NCBI GenBank assembly: GCA_029309925.1
Contig: JARKND010000004.1
Coordinates: 744,001 to 808,000, forward strand
Source: Fulvivirgaceae bacterium JP3-4
GTDB lineage: Bacteria > Bacteroidota > Bacteroidia > Cytophagales > Cyclobacteriaceae
DNA: 64,000 bases
Direction of reading: 5' to 3'
This document shows positions 10,833-62,693 of the stretch, piece after piece. Made by a program: the position numbers and the translations under genes. The number at the start of each line of letters is the position of its first letter. Positions within the stretch are counted from its first letter, which is position 1. The notes under the pieces were generated by a model. It made no database searches. It was given only the letters and a program-made list of their open reading frames with translations, and was not told the origin of the DNA.

Positions 10833-10882
10833 CAATTCGATTTTAATGTGCCAATTAGTCAATATGCCAATGTGCCAATTAT
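10833..10882. repeat. Octamer array, left arm of the element around the first four-helix-bundle gene
   Basis: Units read AATGTGCC, AATTAGTC, AATATGCC, AATGTGCC, AATT with an exact 8-base period. The reverse complement of this arm matches the array at 11303-11348, including the flanking TCAATTCGA / TCGAATTAA block, so the two arms can pair over roughly 45 bases. Confidence 0.8.
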
Positions 10883-11235
10883 TTTTTTCCACCTTTAGAA
10901 GTTGTAAGGATACTGTTCAATATTTTTAGAATCTCTTCAATCTTACCAAGCAGTAACTCCGGTTTTGGATACGACCTGGCTGCGTTACACAATTCTAACC
11001 AGTACTCCGTCTCTTCGGCCTCCTTGTAGGCCACTTTCATTTTGTGAATAAAATCAGCCTTGCTCTCTGCTCCTTGTGCCTCCCTGACATTTGCTCCAAT
11101 TGAACATCCTGAGCGAAGTAGTTGATCTGCTATTGCAAATCGCTTTTTCTCAATCAGAATGTCTGAAAATTCGACAACTAATACAGCGAATCGGAACGTC
11201 TTGTCTACGATTGGGTTATTCTTGTAATTTCTCAT
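10879..11235 (-). CDS. Four-helix-bundle protein, 23S rRNA intervening-sequence (S23/bIVS) family
   Basis: The protein is 118 residues from the ATG at 11235. The open frame extends further upstream, but that extension is translated repeat sequence, so the internal ATG (MRNYKNNPIVDKTFRF) is preferred. The pattern of an aromatic/basic N-terminus, a QLLRSGCSIGANVREAQGAES helix boundary (near residues 53-73), and KMKVAYKEAEETEYWLELC is diagnostic of the small four-helix-bundle family first found in 23S rRNA intervening sequences and related to the Avd accessory protein of diversity-generating retroelements. It sits between murE and mraY on the same strand and is enclosed by inverted octamer arrays. 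A function in RNA or nucleic-acid binding is likely from the family but unproven. Confidence 0.88.
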   Translation of the reverse strand: MRNYKNNPIVDKTFRFAVLVVEFSDILIEKKRFAIADQLLRSGCSIGANVREAQGAESKADFIHKMKVAYKEAEETEYWLELCNAARSYPKPELLLGKIEEILKILNSILTTSKGGKK

Positions 11236-11302
11236 ATAATGTGTATTTAAGTGATTTGCACCTAACTCCACATCTTTGGTTTCCGCATCTATATTCGAAC
11301 AC

Positions 11303-11348
11303 TCAATCATTGGCACATTGGCTAATCGGCACATTGGCACATTAATTC
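11303..11348. repeat. Octamer array, right arm of the element around the first four-helix-bundle gene
   Basis: Units read GGCACATT, GGCTAATC, GGCACATT, GGCACATT, AATTCGA with an 8-base period. It is the inverted partner of 10833-10882. The last bases overlap the murE stop codon at 11342-11344, so insertion at or next to the end of murE is likely. Confidence 0.8.
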
Positions 11349-12805
11349 GAAAACATTTTCAACATTCTTCCTACAACCTCTCTGTCATCAAAAGGATATT
11401 TCACCCCTTTAATCTCCTGGTAGGTCTCGTGTCCTTTGCCTGCGATTAGCACAATATCTTTCTCTTTCGCCATCATGCAGGCAGTCTTGATTGCTTCTTC
11501 CCGATCTGCGATCACCAAGGTCTTGCGCGCCTCTGTCGGAAGAATTCCTGATTGCATTTCTTTGATAATCTCCATCGGATCTTCATCACGGGGATTGTCC
11601 GAAGTAAGAACTACTTTATCGCTAAGCTTGCAGGCTATCGAAGCCATCAATGGTCTTTTTGTTTTGTCGCGATTTCCGCCACATCCAACCACGGTTATAA
11701 CGTGTTCGGTCCCTGTTCTGAATTGCGCGATCGTTTCGAGCACGTTCTTCAAAGCATCGGGTGTGTGAGCATAGTCAACAATTGCAGTGAACTTAGATCC
11801 AGGCGAAACAAGTTCAAATCGCCCCGGTGCGCCATTCAATGACGACAGATGCGTGAGCACCTCGTCTTCATTTTCGCCAAGCAGCACTGCTGCGCCAAAA
11901 ACGCCAAGCAGGTTGTACGCATTGAAATCACCGATCATTTTGAACCATACGTTCTTGTTCGCGACCTCCAGTTCTAATCCTTCAATTGAATTCGTAATGA
12001 TCTTGCCTTTGAAGTCGACCATCTTCTTCAGGCCGAAGGTATATTTCTTTGCTTTCGTATTCTGAAGCATCACCATTCCACGCTTGTCATCCGCATTAAC
12101 CAAAGCAAAGGCGTCTGATGGCAACTCATCAAAGAATTTTTTCTTTGCTTTGATGTAGTTTTCAAATGTTTTGTGGTAGTCGAGGTGGTCATGCGTGATG
12201 TTTGTAAACAACGCGCCCGCGAACTTCACTCCAGCGATTCTCTCCTGATCAACAGCGTGAGAGCTCACTTCCATAAAGGCGTGCGTACACCCTTCGTCTA
12301 CCATTTTTTTCAGTAGCTCGTTCAGCTGAATCTGATCCGGTGTAGTATGCGTGGATGGAATTGCTTTATCGAATATTCTGTTTTCAACGGTTGAGATGAG
12401 TCCCGCTTTTTTTCTCATCCTTGAGAACAGCTGATAAAGAAGCGTGACAGTTGTTGTCTTTCCGTTCGTTCCGGTTACCCCTACCAGTTTCAACTTCTCC
12501 GATGGGTTGCCAAAATAATTGGATGCAATGATTCCGAGCGCTGCCGCGCTATCTTTTACGGTAGCATAGACGATGCCATCCTTCACCGTATCCGGAAGTT
12601 TTTCGCAGATGATCACGGAAGCGCCAAGATCTATCGCCTTCTGAATGAACTGGTGCCCGTCAGAAAGTGTTCCTTTAACCGCCACAAATAAAAATCCTGG
12701 CTGCACTTTCCGTGAGTCAAAACAAATTCCTTTCACATCAGTGTTCATATCACCGAACGATGATGTTAAAGAAACTTTGTACAATATATTTTTTAAATCT
12801 GCCAT
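11342..12805 (-). CDS. murE: UDP-MurNAc-L-Ala-D-Glu:meso-diaminopimelate ligase MurE
   Basis: MurE adds the third residue of the stem peptide. The 487-residue protein carries the ATP motif [17 protein letters not shown] near residue 110 and the NITHDHLDYH motif. Near residue 400 it has TSDNPRDEDP, whose DNPR is the signature of enzymes that use meso-diaminopimelate rather than lysine. The peptidoglycan is therefore inferred to be of the DAP type. The start overlaps the ftsI stop by one base (TAATG). Downstream, the cluster is interrupted by the four-helix-bundle element before mraY. Confidence 0.97.
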   Translation of the reverse strand: MADLKNILYKVSLTSSFGDMNTDVKGICFDSRKVQPGFLFVAVKGTLSDGHQFIQKAIDLGASVIICEKLPDTVKDGIVYATVKDSAAALGIIASNYFGNPSEKLKLVGVTGTNGKTTTVTLLYQLFSRMRKKAGLISTVENRIFDKAIPSTHTTPDQIQLNELLKKMVDEGCTHAFMEVSSHAVDQERIAGVKFAGALFTNITHDHLDYHKTFENYIKAKKKFFDELPSDAFALVNADDKRGMVMLQNTKAKKYTFGLKKMVDFKGKIITNSIEGLELEVANKNVWFKMIGDFNAYNLLGVFGAAVLLGENEDEVLTHLSSLNGAPGRFELVSPGSKFTAIVDYAHTPDALKNVLETIAQFRTGTEHVITVVGCGGNRDKTKRPLMASIACKLSDKVVLTSDNPRDEDPMEIIKEMQSGILPTEARKTLVIADREEAIKTACMMAKEKDIVLIAGKGHETYQEIKGVKYPFDDREVVGRMLKMFSN

Positions 12806-16215: not shown

Positions 16216-16260
16216 GGGACCAATCTTAGCTTCAAGCTGCAAGCTGCAAGCTGCAAGCGG
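16216..16260. repeat. Heptamer array, left arm of the element around the second four-helix-bundle gene
   Basis: Units read AGCTTCA, AGCTGCA, AGCTGCA, AGCTGCA, AGCGGTG with an exact 7-base period, directly upstream of the rsmH start. The reverse complement matches 16628-16682, including a GGACCA block on the outer edge of both arms. Confidence 0.8.
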
Positions 16261-16268
16261 TGACACTC

Positions 16269-16616
16269 TCATAGCTTATCAATAAATTTTGAAATCATCC
16301 GTTGCTCCTGCTCTACTTTATTAAGCAGATCCTCTATCAATTCGGCTGGTGCCCAACCTTGTGATTCAACTACCAGGCTTTGAGTCTCCAACTCGTAGGC
16401 AGAACCCAATGAGATTTCAACATATCTGAGATAGTCCTTCTGACTTCTCTTTGCGCTGCCTTCAGCGATGTTTGACGGAATTGAGACTGCGCTTTTCGTC
16501 ATCTGAAGTTGTAAACCAAACCTTTCTTCTTTCGGTAGGTATTTCACAACGTTATACACCAACTTCACAATCTCCATCCCTCTTTGCCAAATCAAGAGCT
16601 GCTTAAAGTTTCGCAT
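16269..16616 (-). CDS. Four-helix-bundle protein, 23S rRNA intervening-sequence (S23/bIVS) family
   Basis: The protein is 115 residues from the ATG at 16616. The longer open frame upstream translates repeat DNA and is rejected. The sequence reads MRNFKQLLIWQRGMEIVKLV, then KEERFGLQLQMTKSAVSIPS, NIAEGSAKRSQKDYLRYVEI and SLGSAYELETQ, which is the classical consensus of this family. It is only distantly similar to the copy at 10879-11235, so the two are not a recent duplication. It lies between mraZ and rsmH on the cluster strand, within inverted heptamer arrays. A nucleic-acid-binding role is inferred from the family. Confidence 0.92.
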   Translation of the reverse strand: MRNFKQLLIWQRGMEIVKLVYNVVKYLPKEERFGLQLQMTKSAVSIPSNIAEGSAKRSQKDYLRYVEISLGSAYELETQSLVVESQGWAPAELIEDLLNKVEQEQRMISKFIDKL

Positions 16617-16627
16617 ATACTGAAAAA

Positions 16628-16682
16628 GTTTGCAGGCTTCGACTTGCAGCTTGTAGCTTGCAGCTTGCAGCCATGGTCCAAC
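16628..16682. repeat. Heptamer array, right arm of the element around the second four-helix-bundle gene
   Basis: Units read GCTTCGA, CTTGCAG, CTTGTAG, CTTGCAG, CTTGCAG followed by CCATGGTCCA, with a 7-base period. It is the inverted partner of 16216-16260. The unit is shared with the arrays at 34641-34680, 34750-34790 and 45927-45957. Confidence 0.8.
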
Positions 16683-32198: not shown

Positions 32199-32287
32199 AT
32201 AGCCACCAAGACACTAAGACACTAAGGAACACCAAGAATGCATTTCTTTGTGAAACTTTGTGACTTGGTGTCTTAGTGGCTATTGCA
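32199..32287. repeat. Inverted pair of octamer arrays
   Basis: The left array (32199-32236) reads CCACCAAG, ACACTAAG, ACACTAAG, GAACACCA. The right array (32250-32287) reads CTTTGTGA, CTTGGTGT, CTTAGTGG, CTATTG. Both have an 8-base period and pair as reverse complements. It fills the gap between two convergent genes and could act as a bidirectional stop. Confidence 0.75.
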
Positions 32288-33705: not shown

Positions 33706-33831
33706 GAGATTTTAGATTTTAGAATTATGATTTAAGATTTAAAGGCAATTGACGTCATTGTGAAACAGTGACGTCAATTGGAATACCAGCAACGTCTAAA
33801 TCCAAAATCTTAAATCTTAAATCTTAAATCA
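33706..33831. repeat. Large inverted pair of heptamer arrays with a 12-bp central palindrome
   Basis: The left array (33706-33744) reads GAGATTT, TAGATTT, TAGAATT, ATGATTT, AAGATTT. The right array (33792-33831) reads GTCTAAA, TCCAAAA, TCTTAAA, three times, with a 7-base period. Between them CAATTGACGTCA (33746-33757) and TGACGTCAATTG (33769-33780) are perfect inverted repeats around an 11-base loop. The whole structure can fold into one long hairpin. It lies between two co-directional genes. Confidence 0.8.
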
Positions 33832-34640: not shown

Positions 34641-34790
34641 AGGCTGCAAGCTGCACGCTACAAGCTGCAAGCCTTGGCGCACGTTGATTAATGTTGACTA
34701 CCTAGAAATAAAAAAGGGCCGCCAGGCCCTCTTGTAAACTATTCAATGAACATGCATCTGCTTGTAGCTTGCGGCTTGCAGCTTGCAGCT
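34641..34790. repeat. Inverted pair of heptamer arrays enclosing the tsf terminator
   Basis: The left array (34641-34680) reads GGCTGCA, AGCTGCA, CGCTACA, AGCTGCA, AGCCTTG. The right array (34750-34790) reads GCTTGTA, GCTTGCG, GCTTGCA, GCTTGCA, GCTCTTA. The unit is the same as at 16216-16682 and 45927-45957. The right arm touches the tsf stop codon and the interior (about 70 bp) holds only the terminator hairpin. Confidence 0.75.
34711..34730 (-). terminator. Terminator after tsf
   Basis: A 6-bp G/C stem (AGGGCC / GGCCCT, 4-base loop) is followed on the minus strand by six T. It lies within the array pair 34641-34790. Confidence 0.75.
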
Positions 34791-42884: not shown

Positions 42885-43139
42885 CAATAATCAATGATCA
42901 ATGATCAATAATCAATAATCAATAATCAAATAGCATCGCAGCGAACTAGTCGGCATCAAACATCCAAAAATCAAAAAACAAATAGCAAACGAGGTTGCTA
43001 CAAATGAAGAAGAGTATTCAAACTTGAATACTCCCCTTTGATTTTTGTTTTTTGATCTTTTGAAATTTCTCATCTTAGGTGAACCCCGGATGTTCCGGTA
43101 GTCATAACACGCTTTGATAATTGATAATTAATCATTGTA
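42885..43139. repeat. Nested inverted arrays and hairpins filling the recA-permease gap
   Basis: The 339-bp gap contains an outer pair of heptamer arrays: AATGATC/AATAATC units at 42885-42932 and TGATAAT, TGATAAT, TAATCAT at 43110-43139. Inside is an inner pair of A-rich and T-rich blocks (42962-42984 and 43036-43063). At the centre is a perfect 10-bp hairpin (GAGTATTCAA / TTGAATACTC, 43012-43033). All three pairs are inverted, giving a concentric fold. No coding sequence is seen. Confidence 0.7.
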
Positions 43140-52112: not shown

Positions 52113-52144
52113 TTTCTTCTTTTGTAAGTAACTATAGAGTATTT

Positions 52145-52252
52145 GTGCTCATGTGTTCAGGTGCTCATGTGCTCATGTTCAGTGATGGGTTAGACGTTTA
52201 AGTTTACACCGCCCTACATGAGCACCTGAACACACGCGCACATGAGCACAAT
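52145..52252. repeat. Inverted pair of octamer arrays upstream of the DUF486 gene
   Basis: The left array (52145-52182) reads GTGCTCAT, GTGTTCAG, GTGCTCAT, GTGCTCAT. The right array (52216-52252) reads ATGAGCAC, CTGAACAC, ACGCGCAC, ATGAGCAC. The 8-base period is exact and the arms are near-perfect reverse complements around a 33-base interior. Confidence 0.85.
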
Positions 52253-52646: not shown

Positions 52647-52766
52647 AGCATGTGTTAATGTGCTGATGTGTTAATCTTGAAAGCATAGGTAATGTTGGAC
52701 CATACCACAACATTAACACATTAACACTTTAGCACCTTAACACAACTCGAGCACCTGAGCACAATT
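52647..52766. repeat. Inverted pair of octamer arrays downstream of the DUF486 gene
   Basis: The left array (52647-52675) reads ATGTGTTA, ATGTGCTG, ATGTGTTA. The right array (52705-52766) reads ACATTAAC, ACATTAAC, ACTTTAGC, ACCTTAAC, ACAACTCG, AGCACCTG, AGCACAAT. The last two units of the right array reproduce the unit of the upstream pair (52145-52252), so the two elements are related. The array reaches the stop of the acyltransferase gene. Confidence 0.8.
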
Positions 52767-62088: not shown

Positions 62089-62272
62089 CCCCCGGCTTAA
62101 GCCGGGGGTTAACACACCCAGTTTGCAATCCCCGACTTTATGACTGCCCTTCGGCTAAAGCCGATCATTGCATGGTTCGCTTCTGAATTCATATCTTTAG
62201 CTACCAATGATGCATGACTTGCAGGAAACTCTTGCAAGGTGCCGACTTAATATGCATTATGAGCTTTGTCAG
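62089..62272. repeat. REP-like unit, copy 3, running into the transposase gene
   Basis: This copy matches the first about 184 bp of copies 1 and 2 and continues into the intact transposase start. Its divergence from the others begins at about codon 5 of the gene, which shows that copies 1 and 2 derive from the 5' end of this element. Confidence 0.75.
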
Positions 62273-62693
62273 AATCCTCGTGCACGTGGTGTGGAGTACT
62301 AAATACCGAGAGCCGGTGCTCTCAAACGAAAAACGACAACTCCTGTTTGATCATATCTATCAAAATGCCAAATCAAAAAACATTCGTTTACTATCAATTG
62401 GTGGATTTGTTGACCATGTCCATTGTCTGATTAGTTTGAATAAAGATGATAGCATCGCCAGGACTATTCAGTTACTAAAAGGCGAATCCTCAAACTGGGC
62501 GAACAAGAGAAACATTTTTCCTAGCAGGTTAATGTGGGCAGAAGACTATTTTGCAGTTTCAGTTAGTGTAGGCGCAGTGAACTCCATCAAAAATTATATT
62601 GCTAATCAAGAAGCTCATCATTCAAACATGTCGTTTGATGATGAGTTCGAAAGCTTTAAAATACGGCTCGCTTTGGACAGTTTGAATGAGTGA
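62259..62693 (+). CDS. REP-associated tyrosine transposase (IS200-like, RAYT)
   Basis: This is a single-strand DNA transposase of the Y1/HUH family. The protein is 144 residues from the ATG at 62259, because the frame's earlier ATG lies in the repeat leader. It has the N-terminal strand RILVHVVWSTKYREPVL, the HUH-type metal motif GGFVDHVHCLISL near residue 53 and the nucleophile Tyr in SIKNYIANQEAHH near residue 112. The small size and the adjacent GGCTWWAGCC hairpins fit the RAYT group, which mobilises REP-like palindromes. The gene appears intact. Copies of its leader without the gene stand in tandem just upstream. Confidence 0.9.
   Translation: MSFVRILVHVVWSTKYREPVLSNEKRQLLFDHIYQNAKSKNIRLLSIGGFVDHVHCLISLNKDDSIARTIQLLKGESSNWANKRNIFPSRLMWAEDYFAVSVSVGAVNSIKNYIANQEAHHSNMSFDDEFESFKIRLALDSLNE

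Follow-up and report, generated by a model that had tools for sequence, protein, structure and literature searches.

Candidate IVS-type mobile elements outside rRNA genes: four-helix-bundle genes between convergent short tandem repeats in bacterial operons

Introduction

Intervening sequences (IVSs) within 23S rRNA genes are among the long-known small insertions of bacteria. The IVS of Coxiella, as given in the accessible part of one account, is 428-444 nt long and carries tandem heptamers (GACAGAT) upstream of its ORF; the same source relays an older suggestion that IVSs are mobile elements or remnants of them, and describes the related structure 2GSC as a homopentamer (PMC4990558). Where 23S rRNA IVSs come from and whether they move, what four-helix-bundle (4HB)/S23 proteins do, and how bacterial heptamer repeats arose are all long-standing questions.

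REPIN/RAYT systems consist of a gene flanked by convergent repeats, together with an extragenic population of gene-less pairs built from the same repeat. Short tandem repeats have also been described on their own. Convergent pairs of the heptamer GGGAATC number 70 in Xcc and 75 in Xac among the Xanthomonas genomes; the accessible text of that report names no linked gene, finds generally no association with mobile elements, and notes few inverted pairs in one Nostoc genome (PMC4692102). In Beggiatoaceae, the TAACTGA repeats run in direct orientation apart from one that is inverted, in the portion of the source available (PMC4679880). Finally, Avd (4DWL), the accessory protein of diversity-generating retroelements, has been structurally aligned with 2GSC, according to the accessible part of PMC10053308.

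Here we analyse a 64,000-nucleotide stretch of DNA from Fulvivirgaceae bacterium JP3-4 (the window; its genome, G000, is the source genome; G and L handles denote genomes and loci), in which a first-pass annotation had placed an IVS-like mobile element between the cell-wall genes murE and mraY. Among the matches listed in literature searches, with bioRxiv and most subscription papers beyond their reach, none described PF05635 genes that lie in convergent heptamer arrays at places other than rRNA.

Results

Anatomy of the unit between murE and mraY

The sole gene of this unit (element A, Table 1) encodes a protein that matches both PF05635 (E 4.6e-22, 78.7 bits, cut-off 33.8) and TIGR02436 (E 3.3e-26, 91.6 bits, cut-off 24) in profile searches, and hence passes the curated cut-offs of 23S_rRNA_IVP and TIGR02436 for the four-helix-bundle family. 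It is enclosed by convergent arrays of AATGTGCC and its complement, with a period of 8; taken without gaps, the arms span 10843-10883 and 11305-11345, are 41 nt long and are 83% complementary. The first-pass annotation was correct in its anatomy: the bIVS-family gene is borne out by both profiles on the minus strand, as are the pairing of the arms over about 45 bases, a unit of about 515 bp (measured at 516 bp with one gap) and the overlap with the murE stop codon. The arm score of element A is 23.5, as compared with a best value of 12.5 among 24 scored murE loci of relatives. In the predicted RNA fold the arms pair (MFE -148.9 kcal/mol, z -6.25 against 100 shuffles); a strong predicted stem is, however, what any such inverted repeat would be expected to give.

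Set against the described IVSs, element A has terminal inverted repeats that form a long predicted stem around an S23-type ORF, and short tandem repeats near its 5' end of the kind seen as heptamers in Coxiella, with a period of 8 in element A itself. It does not lie inside a 16S or 23S rRNA gene.

Table 1. Positions of the elements, genes and array pairs in the 64,000-nt window
Feature	Position	Strand	Remarks
Element A (entire 4HB unit, murE-mraY junction)	10836-11351	-	516 bp, one gap allowed between arms
Element A octamer array, mraY-proximal arm	10836-10883	+	AATGTGCC type
Element A octamer array, murE-proximal arm	11305-11351	-	overlaps murE stop codon
4HB gene of element A	10879-11235	-	118 aa from ATG; ORF open 10879-11340
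murE	11342-12805	-	stop codon overlapped by right end of element A
Element B (second 4HB unit, mraZ-mraW junction)	16229-16671	-	AAGCTGC heptamer arms
4HB gene of element B	16269-16616	-	115 aa from ATG; ORF open to 16706
Gene-less array pair	32199-32283		CCAAGACA type; no cognate own 4HB arm found
Gene-less heptamer pair	33715-33830		GATTTAA type; no cognate own 4HB arm found
Gene-less pair	34643-34789		AAGCTGC (element B unit); apparently around host terminator
Gene-less heptamer pair	42892-43137		AATGATC type, nearest L016; second pair nested at 42963-43063
Gene-less octamer pair	52144-52242		GTGCTCAT type, nearest L013; different array at G002 site
Gene-less octamer pair	52651-52744		TTAATGTG, unit of 4HB element L013; short site in G001, G017

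Two elements of different age in the dcw cluster

Searches for murE covered 28 relatives, one of which (G004) yielded only a weak paralogue. At the 25 loci, in 24 relatives, where both genes could be placed, murE and mraY are separated by 2-73 nt between tblastn-aligned ends; the junction was inspected closely for 10 loci, and the spacing is 36, 15 and 6 nt in the three closest relatives (G002, G001 and G017, respectively). Among the placed loci, a match to the element A protein at this junction (E 1e-3) occurs in the source genome's own locus only.

About 5 kb away in the same dcw cluster lies a second 4HB unit, element B, absent from the first-pass annotation. Its protein matches PF05635 with E 2e-31 and, below cut-off, bAvd (E 4e-4) and DivGenRetAVD (E 4.5e-6). 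Seventeen of the 20 mraZ-mraW junctions fetched were resolved. The site is filled in G002 by an orthologous element whose protein is 59% identical, as compared with 95% for mraZ and 80% for mraW; it measures 20 nt in G001, a same-genus relative, and 11 to 104 nt at the remaining 15 junctions, none of which has a 4HB match. Given the G002 ortholog and the short junctions elsewhere, element B is the older of the two and more diverged than its neighbours, while element A is seen in the source genome alone among those examined.

Arms around 4HB genes are widespread

Four-helix-bundle/S23 proteins were found in 52 of 60 genomes of the same family and in none of 14 control genomes. The source genome has 12 PF05635 matches, 10 of them above the Pfam cut-off, and all 12 lie between inverted short-repeat arms, each with its own unit; the best matches among these proteins are mostly 28-48% identical. 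Over 169 scored loci (three more, L074, L121 and L144, were left out for their short flanks), 126 reached the arm threshold and 43 fell below it. By set, the numbers were 12/12 for the source genome, 17/29 for the family, 9/13 for the genus, 58/78 for named GTDB genomes and 30/37 for IMG/VR. Neither the family set nor the named set is random: the former takes one best match per genome from 30 genomes, and the latter is made up of the 80 best among at least 591 relatives. Some IMG/VR loci are near-duplicates, and identical arms were merged into 127 distinct elements for the arm statistics. Armed loci in the named set include Clostridia, Omnitrophota, Planctomycetota, Patescibacteria and Xanthomonas.

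We set the threshold at 13 after viewing controls of like kind; position-shifted flanks reached it in 3 of 295 cases and flanks in direct orientation in 15 of 169. These two controls replace a mismatched-pairing control, which was set aside (mean 13, 95th percentile 30.6 and maximum 162, versus an observed median of 14.75) and is suspected of having been inflated by homologous flanks in opposite orientation.

Across the 127 distinct armed elements the period is 7: self-match within arms reaches 0.67 for a lag of 7 and 0.64 for one of 14, as compared with 0.24-0.32 for the remaining lags in the range 3-15. Pairing between arms is 87% in register and 67% when slid by one unit, and G outnumbers C in the left arm of 105 of the 127. 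Armed units have a median length of 475 bp and matched arms one of 29 nt, although some arrays, such as that of L237, exceed 10 units. Elements tend to occupy the gap from a stop codon to the following start. The median distance from the upstream stop to the start of the left arm is 3 nt (n=102, with 70 values from -10 to +15), and that from the end of the right arm to the next start is 12.5 nt (n=92), with ORF ends assigned mechanically and some stops perhaps supplied by the arm itself, as in L252. Where both neighbours were called, 67 of 95 elements are co-directional with both.

The repeat unit goes with the protein

We compared the arms of 4HB elements whose flanking ORFs are non-homologous, counting arms as alike at an arm score of at least 12. 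Alike arms made up at most 0.8% of pairs with proteins less than 50% identical, 1.8% at 50-60% identity, 14 of 58 pairs at 60-80% and two of three above 80%. Eight of those 14 are pairs of IMG/VR contigs; with IMG/VR removed, the counts are 24/4190, 12/510, 6/25 and 2/2 for the same four classes. One example is L077, from G004 of the source genome's own family, and L235, from Trichormus plasmid C, whose proteins are 69% identical. By this comparison, each element has its own 7- or 8-mer, which accompanies the protein across unrelated loci.

Empty sites and dispersal

A search with one 4HB protein gave matches in 39 plasmid records, mainly cyanobacterial; for the one protein searched, a phage collection gave no 4HB match. 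Seven of eight plasmid regions reached the arm threshold (L239 fell below), and the plasmid elements include one between cas6 and cas4 and another between nrdB and nrdA.

A clean empty site is that of L235, represented by three plasmids with 97-98% flank identity. The insert lies at the upstream stop codon and is bordered on each side by GTAAT or TAAT, a duplication of 4-5 bp. The element recurs in L252 and L253 (82.5% and 77.8% DNA identity), whose flanks have no match to those of L235, and gene-less copies with L235-type arms and a shared core occupy three further sites (L249, L250 and L254). Array length differs between L235 and L236. In Nostoc sp. C052, L243 holds a decayed L235-type remnant (~1650-1785) at the identical insertion point. 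Since this decayed copy sits in a more distant plasmid, the empty sister plasmids may reflect precise excision or recombination instead of the ancestral state.

Filled and empty sites compared in this way yield clean empty sites for the plasmid relatives. Further duplications read CG (a gene-less unit), TACAA (an insert that extends beyond the arms) and, tentatively, TTAG (L238, 85% identity), and the comparison found no clear one at L233, L252 or L253; duplications of 2-5 bp, or none clear, are thus not uniform.

The three cyanobacterial gene-less units (L249, L250, L254) have a conserved hairpin-like core of about 100 nt, which had no Rfam match at E 0.1. At 2880-3600 of L237, the gap from cas6 to cas4 of a type I-D cas operon holds a 4HB element with more than 10 heptamers in one arm. 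This element may bear on the 23S rRNA IVP that is named in a figure legend, in the accessible part of PMC10910872.

Gene-less array pairs share the units of resident 4HB elements

Scanning of 464 kb of the source genome (20 stretches plus the 64-kb window) listed 45 convergent 6-8-mer array pairs, only two of which enclose a 4HB gene; a control shuffled by single bases within 200-base blocks gave one. A stricter threshold left 38 gene-less pairs, of which 21 match an arm among the 12 resident 4HB elements and 17 do not; when 12 arms were drawn at random from other genomes, and so with a different base composition too, the matches had a mean of 1.04 and a maximum of 6. In G002, nine of 14 gene-less pairs are cognate (null mean 0.97, maximum 6), three pairs sharing one site. 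Both tests were free of hand picking and counted overlapping pairs at one site separately (L257 in the source genome, L355 in G002); an earlier, hand-picked test of 32 of the 45 pairs, from which the two with 4HB genes, overlaps and low scores had been removed, gave 19/32 (null mean 0.77, maximum 5). At the stricter threshold, 300 kb of G059 held no gene-less pairs, though four of the six 4HB genes read there reach the arm threshold.

The octamer of element A occurs in tandem 49 times in the source genome, and its reversed pattern not at all. Elsewhere it occurs at most four times in 58 of 59 other family genomes and 10 times in G042; none of these 59 belongs to the same genus, and G001 and G002, the latter with a related array at one site, are outside the sample. 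Sixteen of 18 octamer loci inspected in the source genome form a pair, and no octamer pair examined by eye is in reverse order. The unit of the X. codiaei 4HB element is found 95 times in that genome, versus three for the reversed pattern.

The loops of the 16 octamer pairs in the source genome share no 11-mer beyond words of the repeat unit. In the window, arrays of the element B unit at 34643-34789 seem to flank the host's native terminator, judging from G002 and G001. Unrelated loops and an apparent loop of host DNA mean that a simple unit transposon would explain the plasmid cases and not the gene-less arrays of the source genome, for which one might add a process that synthesises or converts arrays at hairpins.

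Two of the window's gene-less sites have counterparts in G002. That of 52144-52242 (L306, 8814-8968) is a heptamer array resembling G002's own 4HB units L224/L226; at the site of the 52651 array, L306 9336-10148 holds about 800 bp that by eye resemble an HTH/toxin-antitoxin pair.

RNA signals and candidate enzymes

Mismatches within the arms of the 127 armed elements show no excess of G-U over A-C (101 versus 120, p 0.23). Selection on the arms at the RNA level was therefore discarded as a candidate, and the processing of the dcw transcript that the first-pass annotation had raised is not claimed here. Rfam gave no match in 20 loci (five of the source genome) at the gathering threshold, nor in eight loci at E 0.1. 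The source assembly has no LSU rRNA match.

Reverse transcriptases were searched with RVT_1 in five genomes. There was no match in G002 or G072, one below cut-off in the source genome, and matches above cut-off in G001 and G059; the first three genomes carry cognate arrays, and thus a partner reverse transcriptase, as expected of a diversity-generating retroelement, was not found above cut-off in any of them. The match in the source genome (L361, 924-4010, G000:C5) has a nitrilase-like part, and its best PADLOC profile is RT_UG5-nitrilase (DRT; E 8.3e-196). A reverse transcriptase acting in trans is disfavoured by this distribution.

Y1 transposases match in all five genomes. Five Y1 genes of the source genome lack array flanks (arm scores 8-12.5), and G059 has 19 matches yet no gene-less pairs seen, for which reasons we rejected a Y1 transposase as the mobiliser. 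One Y1 (IS200-like) gene without array flanks, encoding 159 aa, lies in the window at 62214-62693.

The only solved relatives of the 4HB proteins found by sequence are 2gsc and 2rld, with five chains each. We know of no enzyme with this fold.

Discussion

Element A resembles the 23S rRNA IVSs of Coxiella and Leptospira, as far as the accessible text describes them, in protein family, similar size, inverted-repeat stem, sense-strand gene and sporadic distribution (PMC4990558). It differs from them in that its kind sits in protein operons, with element-specific units and cognate gene-less arrays. Like REPIN/RAYT, the system has a repeat-flanked gene and an extragenic population of gene-less pairs, cognate to the flanks of gene-bearing units in the source genome and G002, with none in G059. 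Unlike REPIN/RAYT, the gene encodes a 4HB protein instead of a Y1 (HUH) transposase, the repeat is a tandem array of 7/8-mers, and the loops are unrelated. Element A is thus IVS-type by anatomy without being an rRNA IVS by place, and its population works like RAYT/REPIN without being one. Convergent heptamer pairs are shared with Xanthomonas and with Nostoc and other cyanobacteria, whose arrays flank 4HB genes here, whereas the accessible account links no gene to them (PMC4692102). The element B protein has weak profile matches to Avd, in keeping with the published Avd-2GSC alignment (PMC10053308, accessible part), but unlike Avd it has no partner reverse transcriptase above cut-off in three array-bearing genomes.

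We consider it rather probable that element A is a small IVS-type mobile element located outside rRNA, that the lineage of its species acquired it at the murE stop codon, and that its 4HB protein serves as a specificity factor for its repeat. The mobile unit would be one 4HB gene between two convergent tandem arrays, usually of 7 bp and of 8 bp in element A. Its protein, a relative of 2GSC/2RLD and more distantly of Avd, would recognise its own repeat as hairpin DNA or RNA and, by analogy with RAYT and REPINs, direct movement or array maintenance, with catalysis left to host or trans-acting enzymes. Placed between a stop codon and the next start, such an element would be tolerated by the operon. 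RNase III, which is reported to excise the IVSs of 23S rRNA, may likewise remove the long stem from the mRNA. Comparison of sequences establishes the anatomy, which recurs in several phyla, the insertion and dispersal, the linkage of unit to protein and the cognate gene-less arrays; mobility is what we infer from it, no transposition having been observed.

Short junctions in relatives and the concentration of inverted 7/8-mer arrays around bIVS genes, both checks that the first-pass annotation had proposed, favour its IVS-like mobile element, as do the empty plasmid sites and the heptamers of Coxiella (PMC4990558, accessible part). Arms around unrelated cargo, with no bIVS association, were to count against it: gene-less arrays with unrelated loops are indeed common, but their units are those of the genome's 4HB elements, and the association holds. 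Several observations speak against a mobile element: the duplications are not uniform, G059 has no gene-less pairs, loops are unrelated, 17 of 38 gene-less pairs are non-cognate, and 43 of 169 loci fall below threshold.

Some of the same features would suit a regulatory system, in which the arrays act as 3' UTR hairpins to terminate, stabilise or cleave transcripts, the 4HB protein regulates its cognate hairpins by binding their RNA, and mobility is slow and incidental. Arms begin just past upstream stops, most elements are co-directional with both neighbours, predicted RNA stems are strong, orthologous sites in relatives hold terminator-like hairpins or other arrays, and Avd, a relative, is a retroelement accessory protein (PMC10053308, accessible part). 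The lack of a G-U excess in the arms, the clean empty sites and the dispersal to unrelated loci nevertheless make this explanation unlikely, and a unit that differs between sister species at one site is hard to reconcile with a conserved regulon. If, on the other hand, slippage and hairpin correction simply lengthen the heptamer arrays and 4HB genes do no more than reside in them, one would expect the variable array lengths (L235 versus L236) and unrelated loops that we see; heptamer repeats are common in bacteria, and those of Beggiatoaceae (TAACTGA) and one Nostoc genome are mostly not inverted (accessible parts of PMC4679880 and PMC4692102). Such passive growth does not account for units that are element-specific and common to a protein's relatives at other loci, for gene-less arrays that match the genome's own 4HB arms, or for a fixed orientation, with no reverse-order octamer pair by eye and a G-rich left arm in most elements; we regard it as quite improbable. 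Very improbable, in our estimate, is a retroelement in trans, in which the Avd-like 4HB protein works with a reverse transcriptase to copy the hairpin RNA to new sites. Co-directional placement makes transcription of the element probable, and the bAvd/Avd matches of element B and the alignment of 4DWL with 2GSC (PMC10053308, accessible part) point the same way; RVT_1 is nevertheless absent or below cut-off in three array carriers, the single match in the source genome is a defence-type enzyme, and of the two genomes above cut-off, G059 lacks gene-less pairs.

More tentatively, with a likelihood that we put somewhat short of even, the IVS-type mobile element may exemplify a single system: 4HB proteins of many phyla would be specificity factors of transposase-less mobile DNA, each with its own 7/8-mer code and with arrays, with or without the gene, at operon stop codons, and 23S IVSs, cyanobacterial heptamers and Xanthomonas hairpins would all belong to it. 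If so, a class of mobile DNA without a recognisable transposase resides in the operons of many bacteria, essential cell-wall clusters included. The family is widespread and little recognised, and seems to include the long-known insertions of rRNA genes. A code-specific link between protein and repeat joins the old questions about IVSs, S23 proteins and heptamer repeats, and makes them testable.

A fit of one heptamer to each subunit of the pentamer was considered; matched arms have a median of 29 nt, but arrays of more than 10 units, such as that of L237, leave this as an idea. In L322 and other genomes of the family, two 4HB genes lie about 1.6-1.8 kb apart, an arrangement that recurs in several genera and is perhaps a conserved paired locus.
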